From Siphonodentalium dalli (Eukaryota > Mollusca > Scaphopoda > Gadilida > Siphonodentaliidae): DNA of 64,000 bases. Positions within the stretch are counted from its first letter, which is position 1; each line of letters begins with the position of its first letter. The notes below the pieces were generated by a model. It was not told the origin of the DNA and made no database searches. It saw only the letters and a program-made list of their open reading frames with translations. The position numbers and the translations under genes were made by a program. The stretch is taken from positions 78,394,705 through 78,458,704 of the forward strand of contig CP136067.1 of the NCBI GenBank assembly GCA_032622095.1, in the 5' to 3' direction. Positions 2,828 to 56,215 of this stretch are shown piece after piece.

Positions 2828-3528
2828 GCTCAATAGATTTTTAGATACTCAGATGTAATATAAATTTACATTTATTTTGCAATAAAATGACATGGTTCAA
2901 TATTTATGAAACTGATGCAAATATTATGAGTATAGTTGCCACGCAATATAATTATATATACATGGGGCAGAATGGTGACTCAGAATTATATTTAATATAA
3001 AGCATACTGTTGAAAAAAATCAGTCAGACGCTTGTCATTCATTTTGTGAGTTTCGCAGGCTTTTAGGAATGGTTATGGGGTATGGTAATGTCAAATGGAT
3101 ATAGCCTATACACAAACATCGCAGTCCGATTCAGAATAGTTACGTCAAACGAATAATGAAGAGGAAAAATAATTATTTAAACAATTTAAACAAACACATT
3201 TCGTCCATAATTAGTGTAAAATATATATTGGAAATGGCCGGTCCAATTGTTTCAAAATTGTAAAATGACGATGACGGTTTGTTTTCTTCGACATCTTTCA
3301 GATTAAAGACAAATTTCCTACCATTAATCTCTTAATGCAGACAGGAATTGTAATTCAATTTCTCCAATAAAAATATAACTCGAACTGTAGTCACTATACA
3401 TGTATATTAGAGTGAAACTCGTCTCAATAATCAATATTCGTATAATCTGAAAAGGTGCATATATAGTTTATAGAAGAAAACGATTGCTTTTTTAAAATAT
3501 CAGATTGAACAGATGTTATACTTCTCCC
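2828..3528. other. unassigned AT-rich stretch
   Basis: I see no gene or recognisable repeat between the 256-bp repeat and the 54-bp array. Confidence 0.4.
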
Positions 3529-4765
3529 ATGCACTCTTTATATATAGGTACCAATATAGGTCATATAATAATTGATATATACATGCACTCTTTATATATA
3601 GGTACCAATATAGGTCATATAATAATTGATATATACATGCACTCTTTATATATAGGTACCAATATAGGTCATATAATAATTGATATATACATGCACTCTT
3701 TATATATAGGTACCAATATAGGTCATATAATAATTGATATATACATGCACTCTTTATATATAGGTACCAATATAGGTCATATAATAATTGATATATACAT
3801 GCACTCTTTATATATAGGTACCAATATAGGTCATATAATAATTGATATATACATGCACTCTTTATATATAGGTACCAATATAGGTCATATAATAATTGAT
3901 ATATACATGCACTCTTTATATATAGGTACCAATATAGGTCATATAATAATTGATATATACATGCACTCTTTATATATAGGTACCAATATAGGTCATATAA
4001 TAATTGATATATACATGCACTCTTTATATATAGGTACCAATATAGGTCATATAATAATTGATATATACATGCACTCTTTATATATAGGTACCAATATAGG
4101 TCATATAATAATTGATATATACATGCACTCTTTATATATAGGTACCAATATAGGTCATATAATAATTGATATATACATGCACTCTTTATATATAGGTACC
4201 AATATAGGTCATATAATAATTGATATATACATGCACTCTTTATATATAGGTACCAATATAGGTCATATAATAATTGATATATACATGCACTCTTTATATA
4301 TAGGTACCAATATAGGTCATATAATAATTGATATATACATGCACTCTTTATATATAGGTACCAATATAGGTCATATAATAATTGATATATACATGCACTC
4401 TTTATATATAGGTACCAATATAGGTCATATAATAATTGATATATACATGCACTCTTTATATATAGGTACCAATATAGGTCATATAATAATTGATATATAC
4501 ATGCACTCTTTATATATAGGTACCAATATAGGTCATATAATAATTGATATATACATGCACTCTTTATATATAGGTACCAATATAGGTCATATAATAATTG
4601 ATATATACATGCACTCTTTATATATAGGTACCAATATAGGTCATATAATAATTGATATATACATGCACTCTTTATATATAGGTACCAATATAGGTCATAT
4701 AATAATTGATATATACATGCACTCTTTATATATAGGTACCAATATAGGTCATATAATAATTGATA
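3529..4765. repeat. 54-bp tandem array, 22.9 units
   Basis: A 54-bp unit starting ATGCACTCTTTATATATAGG is repeated head to tail. Starts fall at 3529, 3583 and so on to 4717, and the last unit is cut after 49 bases. All units look identical on reading. Because 54 is divisible by three, both strands stay open through the array; the plus strand repeats the peptide MHSLYIGTNIGHIIIDIY. Each unit contains an imperfect 18-bp palindrome centred on GGTACC. The uniformity implies recent expansion or homogenisation. I treat the long frames as a by-product of the period. Confidence 0.97.
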
Positions 4766-5590
4766 CTGCAAATGCCAAACAGTTAATTTTCTTGACTGGA
4801 ACTTTGTCTCACTAAAATGTAGGCATTTAATAATTAAACACGCGATGTGCCGTAATACATAATGTCGCTGCTTTTATATATGTTCAATGAGAATGGAGTA
4901 TTAAATATACCCGAAGACATTGCAAGTTTAAGGATTTCCCAAATTATAAACATGTGATTGAAAAGGTTTTATTTCTATCATGTATCCATGCTCTATGGCT
5001 TTTTGTTTTCAAATAGGTCTACGAAGGAAGCATAAAATAGGTTGATATTGATAAATATACAAGAACTATTCAGATACCGGCATCATATTTATGCTCCGAA
5101 AAATACTTGCAATGGTCACAGCCATTTTGAAATGTTCGCACAGAAGTGAAACAAACGCTCTTTATTTCTACCTATCAGGAATAGAAAAACACGGAACGCT
5201 CTTTTCTGTTCCATACATGCATGGCTTTGCATGTTTTGGACCCAAGCGCACTGTGTTCGAAGTTGTATTTTGTATGCATATAACGTCATAAAAAAGTAGT
5301 TCGAGAATTTATCGATCTATTTCGATACAGGGAAAAATTAAAAAGCGATTATTAGTAGGTGTTTTTTGGAGCGTAATCAACAGATAAAATCCACTGTGAA
5401 TTAGTTTACGACCGTACGTACGTACGCCATACGCACACATCTCTAATGTGCGAATGTCGTTCAATTTTCCTAATTATTCGGTCAATTGCTTTAAATTTAT
5501 GCATATACGTTTTCAACATACAACATGCATATATATGGCAATATACAGGTATAGAGTACGAGGTAGCGCACTAAATGTATATTAGTACAT

Positions 5591-39373: not shown

Positions 39374-42300
39374 ATCACACCCTCATATACACATACCTAT
39401 GCATACATATATATATATAATGATTTATTAATTTATTCATGTTTATTTAATTTGTCGTCTTCGGATTTTATGGACAGGACAGAATGTGGTACATTTAAGT
39501 ACGACTTATGGTGAACACCCGTAACGTTCAAACTTCAAAGATCAAAGGTTGTTTAACACAAACCGTCATGCGTAGTGGCTGAGAGTTCGACATAGCGCCT
39601 CCAAATTAAGTTTGTGTGAAGAACAATGAATCTCGTAAACTTTGATGTATCCTCAACTTGCTCAAGAAATGTGAATATATCACGTGGAAGATGTGTGAGA
39701 TGGAGCAATACGAGGTCGCTGTTGCTGAGACTCGTGGCCCATACGAATAGCGGTATGCCGAAACGATCAATCATCTGGTACCACATTTCGTTTCTGTGGG
39801 AATGCATAAGTGGGCTACTGCATGAGATAAGTGCGTGCTCGATAATATCAGAGTGTGACTGACAGCATAATGTGCATGTGTTTTGTTGAGAGAATGCGCT
39901 TCCTGCGATGAGCTGACCGACTGTGATAAATGCAATCTTATGCATAGGGTATTTACGACATGTTCTCCATAAGTGACACATAGTAGGGTTTGGTTGAATT
40001 TCTCGAAAACGCGCAAATGAAGTGTCACAATTTGTTCTCTCTGTCCATTTCTGTACGCATTTGTCGTTAATCGCGGTTTTTGTAATGCGTTTCCATTCGG
40101 ATTTCAGAGGAAATGAGCAGAAATGAGCATACTGATGCATATGCTCGGATAGGTTGTATTCAACAAGAGTGTTGTTAATGTCGCTGATGAAGGAATTTGG
40201 GTTTTCCAGTTGTCCCGTGAAGTACATGTGAAGTCTTGTGACAAAAATTTCCTTGCAAGCTTTGCCAGGAGGCATACGGCATAGGCTTCCAAACAAATTG
40301 AGTTTCCTGGCATCAATCAATGACTTGATAGGATGGATGCCAAGCATCCCCAAAACGATATCAGTGCGAGCACGTACAGGAAGTCCCTGGATATGCTTGA
40401 GGCAGAAGCGATGAATTTTCTCAAGAGTTGACCAATGGGTTTCTGATAGACCACACAATAGTTCAGATCCGTATAGACCCTTTGGAATAATTATGGATCT
40501 GTAAAGAGTTTCGCAACTTTGAGGGGTGATTCCACCTGCATACATACCAGCATTGCTCAGCATGAAGTAGGTGGATCTTATTTTGTTGACAATACAGTCG
40601 ATGAACTCACGAGCGAAGTCGCTTCTATGCAACGTTATGCCAAGATGGGTTATGTGATCAGTTTCGTCTACATACCCGTCACCAAGTTTCCATCTCCTTG
40701 GATGCACAGGCAGATTCTTCACTTTTTCATTGAATACAATGGTTTTACATTTCTGTGCGTTGTATGTAAACCGCCACAATCGGCTATACATTGTGCAAAT
40801 ATCACAGAGGCGTTGTAGGCCCACGTTTGTGAGCGAAAAAAGCGTCATATCATCCGCTTGAGTTGGCGACGCGCAGTTTGTGGAGACAATCCGAAGACCA
40901 TAGTTCGATGCCTCGAGTTCATATAACAGATCATCTATATACAACATGTATAAAAGAGGGGATAAAATTCCCCCTTGTCGCGTCCCTTGTAGTATTTTGA
41001 TTTCCCTTGACATTGATTTACCATAATTGACGAAGCACGAAAAGCCCGACAACATCTCCCGTAGTATGAACCATATATGTCCACGGAAACCACGATTGTA
41101 AAGTTTGATCAATAGGCCGTCTAACCACACAGTATCAAAGGCTTTACGGACATCTAGGAAACATGCATACAGCTTACTATTCTGCTCTGATGTGTAATTG
41201 ATGCATTCGCTAACAACATATGATGACATTAAGCAACTTATTTCTTTCTGGAACCCGTTCTGAAGGGGGTGAACTTTAACGAGATATGGTGTATTAATTT
41301 CGAAGCGATTGAGCAGAACCTTTTCCAGGAGCTTATAGAATATGGGTAAGAGTGTAATTGCTCTGTAGCTATCGAACTTGTTCTTTGGTTTGTCTCCACC
41401 CTTATGCAAGGAAATCATTAATCCCGTCTTGGCCATTTTTGGAACATGTCTGAGTTTCAACATCATAGACAGCATGTATGCTGTGCAGTTGAGCAATGTA
41501 TCGCCACCATGTACCACATGCTCATAGCATATGCGGTCGGGACCTGGGGCTTTCCCCTTTTTGGCATTACTAATAGCGTTATTGAGCTCTCTGTGTGATA
41601 TCTCATAAATGAGAGATTGGTCTACTTTAGAAGGTGACTTATGTTCAGAAATATCTGCAATCAAAAGTTGTATCTTCTCCAGATGTTCTGAATCGAAAGT
41701 GGGCGATTGTAGAGGTGAATATAGTTGTTCATAGTAATCTGCCCATGCAGCGGTGATGTCCGACGTATTCCGGATTATTTTGCCATTTACATTGAATAAT
41801 TTACTATCCGGTTTTGATTTCGATCTTTTGTTGTTAAAGAGCTTGAAAAAGAGACCCTGGTCTAACTCAGCTGAATTATCAATTTGTTCATTTTGAGCAG
41901 ACATGTATTGCCCATTACATTTGCGAAGTTCGCGGCGAAATTTGCGTTTAGCTTCTTTATAGTTGCCGTAGCTGATATTTACAATACCTCTCGGTCTCCC
42001 TTCTTCTAGCCATCTATTTCTAGTATTGCGCATTTCGCAGTGGAGTGATTCCAAAGAGTCGTTCCAATACGGTTTGGCGAAAGATTTGAAAGACTTTTTT
42101 GGTATGTGCTGCGTTGTAGCTTTGTTTATCGCACGAACAACAGAATCGTAGTACGAATCGAGATCATCGATGTCAGATATGGCAAAGTTCGGAAGACTGT
42201 CCTGCACGGCGGTTTGATAAGCATTGATTAAGTCTTCCGAGGCAGTGAACTTTTTCCAATTGCATGCTGAAATTTGGTTTTCTGAGCGACCCATTTTATT

Positions 42301-42829
42301 ATTATGTGGGTAATTTATGACCATTTTAATTGGCCTATGATTAGAGACATCCAGTGAATCGTCGTCGATGATTTCGATTTTCTGTACTAGGTACGATTCT
42401 TCCTCGGGAATGAGGATGTGGTCTATCATGGTACCTGGTCCACCATCGGTGGGTACGTATGTCGCAGAAGGCCCAATACAAGCGTCAGTATTGTTGACAG
42501 ACACCAGTGATTTTTGTGAGATAAGTTTGGATAAACTTCTATTTCTGGCATCCGATCTCTGTACACTGCCGTTAAAGTCACCCATCACAATGACGTGCCC
42601 TATTTCTGTGTACATATCGATAAGGTCTTGCACACGATTTATATAGTCTCTATACATTGTGACTGGGTAATTGCTGGAAGGGAGGTACACCTGAAAGATG
42701 TATACATACTGTGATTCTGATATCTGTATTTGAATGCCACAAATGCGATCGTCGTCGTATTGGATGACTGAAACGGCACTGTCCAAACTAGCATGCCATA
42801 TAATGGCAACTCCGCCTTTCGGCCTTCCC
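38821..42829 (-). mobile_element. 5'-truncated, recently inserted LINE (APE type)
   Basis: The insertion is about 4.0 kb and is bounded by a perfect 19-bp target-site duplication. It reads on the minus strand, with a long ORF2 (39553-42837), a 3' UTR of about 730 bp that includes a CA microsatellite (39340-39372), and a terminus reading GGAGGCAATAAAGATATATA in its own orientation, with no long poly(A). Truncation removed ORF1 and the N-terminus of the endonuclease, the normal result of incomplete target-primed reverse transcription. Short-repeat tails and the ORF2 layout fit the CR1/L2/jockey-like part of LINE diversity; I cannot name the clade by eye. Confidence 0.93.
39340..39372. repeat. 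(CA)n microsatellite in LINE 3' UTR
   Basis: An AC run of about 33 bp within a longer CA-rich part of the 3' UTR. The older copy at 0.96-2.57 kb also has a CA/CG-rich 3' UTR. Confidence 0.9.
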
Positions 42830-42837
42830 GCTGACAT
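39553..42837 (-). CDS. LINE ORF2: endonuclease (truncated) / reverse transcriptase
   Basis: The frame is open for 1094 codons. Residues about 8-172 are the C-terminal two thirds of an exonuclease-endonuclease-phosphatase domain: GGVAI, MGDFN (85-89), IDHI (138-141) and SNHRPIK (166-172). The last usually reads SDH, so the aspartate next to the catalytic histidine is asparagine here. The N-terminal catalytic strand of the domain is missing. A linker leads to the reverse transcriptase (about 410-740): KGKAPGPD (427-434), YRAITLLP (491-498), LDVRKAFD (561-568), TRQGGILSP (619-627) and the catalytic QADD (660-663). The C-terminus has C988-x2-C991-x9-H1001-x4-C1006, a zinc-knuckle-like motif shared with the copy at 1653-2571. 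The start ATG (42835-42837) lies in the duplicated target sequence, so the true element began further upstream. The reverse transcriptase looks intact, the endonuclease cannot be. No frameshift or stop is seen. Confidence 0.93.
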   Translation of the reverse strand: MSAGRPKGGVAIIWHASLDSAVSVIQYDDDRICGIQIQISESQYVYIFQVYLPSSNYPVTMYRDYINRVQDLIDMYTEIGHVIVMGDFNGSVQRSDARNRSLSKLISQKSLVSVNNTDACIGPSATYVPTDGGPGTMIDHILIPEEESYLVQKIEIIDDDSLDVSNHRPIKMVINYPHNNKMGRSENQISACNWKKFTASEDLINAYQTAVQDSLPNFAISDIDDLDSYYDSVVRAINKATTQHIPKKSFKSFAKPYWNDSLESLHCEMRNTRNRWLEEGRPRGIVNISYGNYKEAKRKFRRELRKCNGQYMSAQNEQIDNSAELDQGLFFKLFNNKRSKSKPDSKLFNVNGKIIRNTSDITAAWADYYEQLYSPLQSPTFDSEHLEKIQLLIADISEHKSPSKVDQSLIYEISHRELNNAISNAKKGKAPGPDRICYEHVVHGGDTLLNCTAYMLSMMLKLRHVPKMAKTGLMISLHKGGDKPKNKFDSYRAITLLPIFYKLLEKVLLNRFEINTPYLVKVHPLQNGFQKEISCLMSSYVVSECINYTSEQNSKLYACFLDVRKAFDTVWLDGLLIKLYNRGFRGHIWFILREMLSGFSCFVNYGKSMSREIKILQGTRQGGILSPLLYMLYIDDLLYELEASNYGLRIVSTNCASPTQADDMTLFSLTNVGLQRLCDICTMYSRLWRFTYNAQKCKTIVFNEKVKNLPVHPRRWKLGDGYVDETDHITHLGITLHRSDFAREFIDCIVNKIRSTYFMLSNAGMYAGGITPQSCETLYRSIIIPKGLYGSELLCGLSETHWSTLEKIHRFCLKHIQGLPVRARTDIVLGMLGIHPIKSLIDARKLNLFGSLCRMPPGKACKEIFVTRLHMYFTGQLENPNSFISDINNTLVEYNLSEHMHQYAHFCSFPLKSEWKRITKTAINDKCVQKWTERTNCDTSFARFREIQPNPTMCHLWRTCRKYPMHKIAFITVGQLIAGSAFSQQNTCTLCCQSHSDIIEHALISCSSPLMHSHRNEMWYQMIDRFGIPLFVWATSLSNSDLVLLHLTHLPRDIFTFLEQVEDTSKFTRFIVLHTNLIWRRYVELSATTHDGLC

Positions 42838-42846
42838 AACAAATTA
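42828..42846. repeat. target-site duplication of LINE, 5' side
   Basis: An exact copy of 38802-38820. The first three bases (CCG) could be microhomology at the 5' junction, making the strict duplication 16 bp. It supplies the first codons of the open frame on the minus strand. Confidence 0.9.
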
Positions 42847-55270: not shown

Positions 55271-55907
55271 AAGTGGATAACATGTATATATAGTTGAATT
55301 ACGAGAAACGGACAGAATATGGCAATACATATGTAATATAATACTATAATTCATAAATGCAAATCGCCGGCATGTCGTATCTGATAGAATTGTATTTTAT
55401 AATAATATTGGTCAATTTGTTTTACGAAGAAGACCTGCTTTATATGTTAGGATTTGTGGGACGAAATGAGCTGAACAAGGCAAAATGTTTTTGGAAGAAA
55501 CATAAGGCGTCATGATAATCTGTGAAGACGATTTTTACATTCCATTTTTTCTTGACCCGAAAGCAGACTCACCCAGTGCATGATGTTACTGTTGATGTCT
55601 CCATTTTAGTCTATAGGTGCCGCATAGGAAGCGGGTGTTCCCCTCACCAAATTTAGGAGACCACAGTTTCTTGAGGGTGAACTATTCCCATTTGAGAATC
55701 CGGGTGTTTCCGACCTCTAACAGGACGCAAACATAAATGTTTTGACTTTTCCGGTGGTACCCACCCGACAATTTTGGATTTTTAGATGACACCACACCAT
55801 TTTCTATTCAATCTAGAAAACATAATAAGTTCACACAAAAAAGCAAACCTGGTGTTCTTCCGATTGGCCGATGGTCACTCCATCATATATTAACATCCAT
55901 TTGCCGC
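55271..55907. other. unassigned stretch
   Basis: I see no gene or repeat here. Confidence 0.4.
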
Positions 55908-55921
55908 CATATTCGATAAAC
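55908..55921. repeat. target-site duplication of U2-headed retroposon (left)
   Basis: CATATTCGATAAAC is repeated exactly at 56202-56215. Confidence 0.85.
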
Positions 55922-56201
55922 GCTATTTCGCTGTTGCGAAATGGGCGATCGTTCGATCGCTTCTCGGCCTTTTGGCTAAGATCCGTGCTGTGAGATACGT
56001 CCCCGACGATGGTCACCCCATCGGACGGGACTTCCACGGTATGGGTTCGCAGCCTGAGGAGGACGAGTGGTCCTGGCTGACTGACGGACTTCCGCTTCTA
56101 GCGGGGAGGCAATTTGACCATCTCGTAAGGGTGGGCCACATCTTTCGGGGTGCTCAGTCGATAAGAGTGGTCCGCAATAGCACCTGGTTTAAAAAAAACA
56201 A
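55922..56201 (+). mobile_element. U2 snRNA-headed retroposon with A-rich tail
   Basis: The 280-bp insertion is bounded by a perfect 14-bp target-site duplication and ends in A8 plus CAA (56191-56201). Nucleotides 55956-55983 equal nucleotides 1-28 of animal U2 snRNA (ATCGCTTCTCGGCC followed by TTTTGGCTAAGATC). After that the sequence is a GC-rich body of about 200 bp that is not U2, except for a possible GATACGTCC at about 55994. Upstream of the U2 part are 34 bp forming two tight hairpins, the second of which pairs with the first U2 bases. The features of LINE-driven retroposition are all present. It is either a snRNA-headed SINE or a one-off chimera made by template switching. Confidence 0.8.
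55956..55983 (+). ncRNA. U2 snRNA 5' end (nt 1-28), non-functional
   Basis: Exact identity to the conserved first 28 nucleotides of U2, including stem-loop I. The branch-point recognition sequence, Sm site and the rest of the RNA are absent, so it cannot act in splicing. Confidence 0.85.
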
Positions 56202-56215
56202 CATATTCGATAAAC
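56202..56215. repeat. target-site duplication of U2-headed retroposon (right)
   Basis: An exact copy of 55908-55921, directly after the A-rich tail. Confidence 0.85.

Follow-up and report, generated by a model that had tools for sequence, protein, structure and literature searches.

What kind of element carries the 5′ end of U2 snRNA at this locus, and how did it acquire it? The window, that is, the whole 64,000-nucleotide stretch that we analyzed, corresponds to C7:78394705-78458704 of a 2.23-Gb genome assembled in nine contigs. The original prediction, made from the letters alone, described a retroposon headed by exact U2 nt 1-28, and offered three readings: an snRNA-headed SINE, a transcript reading from a U2 gene into an inserted LINE, or a one-off chimera. 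Our results make it very probable that the window copy belongs to a SINE family whose members are dispersed in the genome and whose head derives from U2 snRNA; the family was probably moved by poly(A)-using LINE machinery.

Structure of the window copy

The window copy spans positions 55922-56201 (280 nt) and is bounded by perfect 14-bp target-site duplications (TSDs). Its features are as follows:

55908..55921, plus strand: left TSD, CATATTCGATAAAC, 14/14 identical to the right TSD
55922..55955, plus strand: leader of the H type, 34 nt, common to other short-form copies, with the TSD outside the leader
55956..55983, plus strand: U2 snRNA-derived head, U2 nt 1-28, exact to the genome's own U2 genes
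55984..56190, plus strand: SINE body, common to the family by sequence matches among copies
56191..56201, plus strand: A-rich tail, A8 (56191-56198) followed by CAA
56202..56215, plus strand: right TSD, CATATTCGATAAAC, 14/14 identical to the left TSD

The duplication, the A8 run and the exact U2 match had all been described correctly, the last of these being confirmed against the genome's own U2 genes, which are arrayed in tandem on C5, mostly at 920-bp intervals, and served as our U2 reference. In contrast, U2 does not open the element, as had been claimed; because a 34-nt leader common to other copies lies between the left TSD and U2, the element starts at 55922. In other copies the leader reaches further at the 5′ end, to a length of ~42 nt. 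The leader of the window copy contains a hairpin with a 6-bp stem (TTTCGC-TGTT-GCGAAA, 55926-55941). The U2 head matched the window with a BLAST E of 2.8e-9, and scored 27.2 bits with the Rfam model RF00004, below the cut-off of 46. Downstream of it, GATACGTCCCC at 55994-56004 equals U2 nt 64-74 (E 4.8 when taken alone) and, judged by its sequence, is probably a remnant of U2 stem IIb; U2 similarity in the window copy may run past nt 28. The copy had also been thought to be young. However, its 91.6-94.7% identity to the five relatives compared and a 12-nt deletion near 56107, relative to other short copies, do not support a clearly young age.

Other features of the window were recorded. Just outside the left TSD, the 16-mer CGATGGTCACTCCATC (55869-55884) has one mismatch to body positions 56007-56022, possibly by chance. 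On the minus strand, 39553-42843 is a long 1096-aa open frame that contains RT-like motifs and by eye resembles a LINE, and a tandem repeat with frames open on both strands occupies 3496-4873 (plus strand: repeated MHSLYIGTNIGHIIIDIY).

A dispersed family with uniform junctions

The genome search that had been proposed, for copies of the body sharing the same U2-body junction, returned many copies with uniform junctions, which indicates a SINE family. Using the whole element as query, we obtained at least 68 matches, mostly of 86-90% identity, with 40 of 629 candidates scored; the long form of the family, described below, gave at least 129, most of 88-98% identity, with 40 of 620 candidates scored. 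These similarity-search counts are lower bounds. The pattern for the main, short-form junction had 72 matches, 71 of them GGCTCGAGCC and one GGCTCAAGCC, while the long-form junction was present in 152 places at up to one mismatch, 90 of them exact. U2 1-28 is not the family junction, as had been assumed: U2 extends over nt 1-22 in the main short form and, in the long form, over nt 1-46. For the window junction, GGCTAAGATC-CGTGCTG, there were three matches (in the window and at C9:61375116 and C2:153997631), all exact with two mismatches allowed; it differs from the main junction in a five-base block of equal length. The window copy is therefore a rare short-form variant, represented by three copies.

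For a closer reading we parsed 134 units in 80 loci, 40 long and 94 short by best match; selection of these loci was by best match and exact junction, not at random. Several SINE copies lie within identical host-repeat flanks, and one identical 120-nt left flank is found in five loci. Since copies inside other repeats were duplicated along with their host repeats, copy counts exceed insertion counts.

U2 identity of the long and short forms

In the long form (29 units aligned), U2 nt 1-46 is followed by CGCGCTGG..., a stem-IIb-like segment (TGATACGTCCCC...GGGACTTC), the body and the A tail. We scanned five loci with the Rfam U2 model: of their seven U2-matching long units, five exceeded the cut-off of 46, with 46.6-53.4 bits, and two scored 41.0 and 32.8 bits. 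The U2 similarity after nt 46 in the long consensus was reached by 12 of 3000 dinucleotide shuffles, and the later U2 similarity of the short consensus by 36 of 3000; with reversed U2 as a control, 2957 (long) and 2797 (short) of 3000 shuffles reached the score. An earlier, looser shuffle test of stem IIb gave 23 of 2000. Across the rest of the body, we found no significant U2 homology past stem IIb (357 of 2000 shuffles). The stem IIb similarity is moderate, and by sequence probably represents U2 nt 62-86. Ten U2 stretches fetched later read ACTTCG, while the first U2 copy reads ACTCCG, a better fit to the SINE.

Compared with the long form, the short form shows a 59-nt gap starting at U2 nt 22/23. 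Ahead of U2, short-form copies carry a leader: H (~42 nt, with the hairpin), X (~100 nt), or a stretch ending in TATGCTG. In one locus, L038 (C5:69130450-69131050), U4 snRNA stands as leader ahead of the SINE, starting from the first U4 base and scoring 58.8 bits with Rfam RF00015 (cut-off 46); no clear TSD was found at L038.

Target-site duplications, tails and candidate promoter signals

Fifteen solo long loci were available, eight of them with a complete head. In five of these eight (L049, L050, L052, L059 and L064), the TSD is 8-17 bp long and separated from U2 nt 1 by a single G. Against a shortened head, TSDs of 9-11 bp were present in L051, L062 and L065, and no TSD of at least 8 bp was found in seven of the 15 loci (L054 has one of 7 bp). 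By eye, the extra G also precedes U2 nt 1 in L035 and L066; it is absent from the second unit of L060 and from the units of L067 and L068, and in the main-array U2 genes its position is occupied by T. The G could derive from the cap or be a base fixed in the family. As for the short form, 10 of the 44 solo loci reach a TSD of at least 10 bp, including L019, where it reflects a neighbouring copy fragment. The TSD lies outside the leader in L010, L012, L022 and L025 (leader of 42-45 nt), in L073 and L077 (100 nt) and, by eye, in L039. Many copies have no recognisable TSD; it is clear in the window copy and in part of the others.

Thus, the dispersed uniform copies have the 3′ A tail and, in the window copy and part of the family, the TSDs that characterize SINEs, and of the three readings first offered it is the snRNA-headed SINE that they support. 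Given the TSDs and A tails, we propose that the family spread by target-primed retroposition. To this we add a search with one pattern, which would pass only ~27/64 of the sequences sought, for sequences sharing the last 19 nt of the SINE behind another upstream part: none was found, the two matches both being SINE-like. Because these 19 nt were found behind no different upstream part, poly(A)-using machinery of the L1/Tx1 type would be the likeliest carrier, and the A tail fits such poly(A) use. A LINE of this type does exist in the genome, within a U2 gene (L048, see below).

As putative elements of an internal RNA polymerase III promoter, the long form contains an A-like box TGGCTAAGATC at +18 (2 mismatches) and a B-like box GATCGAGCC at +79 (0 mismatches), either of which may be a chance match. 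Against such a promoter, 102 of the 121 units covering the relevant part of the head retain a T4 run, a potential pol III terminator. Separately, three long-form copies (L049, L050 and L057) are inserted near one another within a repeat that by eye seems related to tRNA; in ten loci, including this interrupted repeat, ARAGORN called no tRNA.

Insertions in the U2 genes and the origin of the head

The LINEs Keno and Utopia belong to the Tx1 group. In the present genome, LINEs are present inside U2 genes. At L047, U2 1-53 is followed by an element, an A tail and then U2 from nt 37, with the TSD GTATCTGTTCTTATCAG; the element has an ORF1-like frame with a CCHC-like motif (by eye). We call L047 and its relatives Keno-like by insertion site, A tail and TSD, no RT being seen in L047 itself. 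L048 consists of U2 1-51, TTATCG, U2 1-48 and a LINE that runs into an assembly gap; this LINE encodes an APE endonuclease (57 bits) and an RT (122 bits), and its best PDB match is LINE-1 ORF2 (E 2.6e-75). The ORF1-like frames of L047 and L048 had no Pfam match. Among ten further U2 stretches fetched, four include the U2 5′ end, and six (L110-L114 and L117, C5:203.8-204.8 Mb) have an A run joined directly to a U2 fragment that starts at about nt 29-32; these are further U2-gene insertions.

U2 heads also occur outside the U2 genes. The pattern of U2 nt 20-53 followed by a non-U2 base had five matches: L047, three Keno-like elements and one member of another repeat, 'B'. The three Keno-like elements have a U2 1-53 head with no U2 promoter in front, and are located at C3:150.62 Mb (L089), C9:108.74 Mb (L107/L118) and C5:203.44 Mb (L106/L119, ~130 kb from the U2 array); two of the three adjoin SINE copies. 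When U2 nt 20-48 was required to be followed by C, G or T, the pattern had 17 matches, L048 and 16 members of repeat 'B'. This repeat (L090-L105) contains U2 nt 3 to about 89 within a longer dispersed repeat, and gave 17 pattern matches over both patterns.

These elements bear on the read-through reading, in which a retroelement inserted in a U2 gene just after nt 46 would be transcribed from the U2 promoter as U2 1-46 plus element, a shortened derivative of which would be the SINE. Such insertions do exist in the U2 genes of this genome, after U2 1-53 in L047 and, as A runs, at about U2 nt 29-32 in six of ten stretches, and the analogues that this reading calls for were found: the LINE of L048 in the U2 array has its own U2 1-48 head, and promoter-less Keno-like elements with a U2 1-53 head stand at three loci, both heads ending near the 1-46 of the SINE. 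However, beyond its U2 part the SINE matched neither of the two LINEs fetched from the U2 array. Moreover, the probable stem IIb (U2 nt 62-86) lies past the insertion site, which argues against a read-through origin. Nor was a long-form SINE with the U2 promoter ahead found at up to 3 mismatches, with a promoter pattern of only the 7 bases before U2 and a U2 array that contains an assembly gap; two matches had 3 mismatches, neither with the promoter letters. We consider this reading unlikely.

Instead, we favor head gain through reverse transcription of U2 RNA, since the U2 similarity probably passes nt 46 and the U4-headed copy is the same kind of product; by analogy, the U4 head of L038 is as a template switch would give. 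Our model of the SINE family is as follows. The long-form RNA would start at U2 nt 1, or one G before, and would comprise U2 nt 1-46, a probably remodelled stem IIb (about nt 62-86), the GC-rich body and the A tail. Its head would most likely have come either from a template switch onto U2 or from a U2 retrocopy that acted as seed. For insertion, the RNA would undergo target-primed reverse transcription as in poly(A)-using elements of the L1/Tx1 kind, creating TSDs of roughly 7-17 bp. The short form, including the window copy, would have lost ~59 nt from U2 nt 22/23 and gained its 5′ leaders.

Arrays of U2-headed units

A neighbour on the same strand within 450 bp was found for 52 of the 90 exact long junctions and 20 of the 72 short ones. 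In the arrays that we read, anything from practically zero to ~110 nt separates the A tail of a unit from the U2 head that follows, an interval whose end at a U2 head is partly a matter of definition, as units are recognised by that head. Genomic target sequence lies between the units of L028, L029, L030, L031, L032, L033, L035, L060, L067 and L068, with the X leader coming after it in two of these arrays, L031 and L032 (~110 nt in total). Part of a leader separates units in L034, L036 and L072 (~60 nt) and, at one junction, in L037 and L075 (14 nt), while other flank sequence separates the two units of L011. Long and short units coexist in L033, L034, L035, L037, L060 and L066. The arrays L032 and L068 have the same target, AAGAGAATCTTC, and similar host sequence.

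Arrays can also combine different elements. At L089/L074, a U2-headed Keno-like element lies between the SINE leader and U2 nt 1 of the SINE, with TCATTCG on both sides, and an upstream stretch of L089 resembles the site without the Keno-like and SINE insertions. At L118 (C9:108738000-108743500), five U2-headed units, of three kinds in all, follow one another in a single orientation, and every one of them ends in an A run: a ~775-bp U2-headed element, a long SINE, a U2-headed Keno-like element, a second long SINE and a short SINE with the X leader.

The frequency of close same-strand neighbours, together with the identical host-repeat flanks around several copies, is what one would expect of a repeat that is not a SINE and that spread mainly by tandem duplication or as a passenger of other repeats. 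Yet solo copies have private TSDs, and in L033 and L035 a single array holds members of different subfamilies separated by the same target sequence, an arrangement for which duplication alone is insufficient. This explanation is, in our judgement, very improbable.

Three processes could each account for some of the array structure: same-site re-insertion, template jumping and head-guided joining. Speculatively, and while giving this idea a rather low chance of being right, we suggest that the U2 5′ end might be a mobility module shared by the SINEs, the Keno-like elements and one or more other retroelements. In such head-guided integration, a cDNA that ends in U2 nt 1 would preferentially be joined immediately upstream of a U2 head already in place, creating same-orientation mixed arrays.

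Relation to known elements

The crocodilian SINEU, reportedly described by Kojima in 2015 (GBE 7:1702), is said to have undergone repeated 5′ addition of U1 or U2 pieces. In papers that cite that work, SINEU is a SINE headed by a spliceosomal snRNA (PMC5753468, PMC8010984, PMC7245038), and PMC8010984 places SINEU and SINE28, taken jointly, in avian, crocodilian and mammalian genomes. The present family likewise has a U1/U2-type head, and shares with SINEU, so described, the derivation of this head from a spliceosomal snRNA. Going by those descriptions, it differs in its U2 1-46 with probable stem IIb, its leaders and its arrays. No report of a U2-headed SINE outside crocodilians was found among the papers listed in searches of the openly licensed PMC literature. 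The SINEU class is already known, and the present family looks like a separate variant of it.

Keno, which has an APE endonuclease, and Utopia are U2-gene-specific LINEs with identical 3′ U2 flanks, according to PMC4640811. The tie to U2 is common to these LINEs, as described there, and to the present genome, whose U2 genes carry Keno-like insertions. Unlike Keno, the window copy, whose TSD is not in U2, and the TSD-bearing solo SINE copies lie outside U2 genes, and the 280-nt window element is too short to encode an APE endonuclease and an RT.

The snRNA/LINE-1 chimeras (U6/L1 and others), as presented in PMC13174262, resemble our elements in having the 5′ part of an snRNA in sense ahead of a retroelement, with TSDs, but they are separate single events, whereas the family described here has fixed junctions. 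Such chimeras are known with LINE-1 in mammals (same source) and L038 with its U4 looks like one in this genome, but since junction and body recur across all nine contigs, we rejected as practically impossible the reading that the window copy is a one-off fusion of U2 RNA and an unrelated transcript in a single retroposition.

SINEs headed by an snRNA are a rare class, of which few families are known. Here, one genome contains the SINE, the U2 array with its inserted LINEs, LINE-derived elements with a U2 head, and a SINE copy headed by U4. Because all these elements occur together, the rival routes of head gain (template switch, read-through and U2 retrocopy) are testable on sequence. In addition, the mixed arrays of U2-headed units raise the question of whether a 5′ head can guide the landing site of a retroposon.
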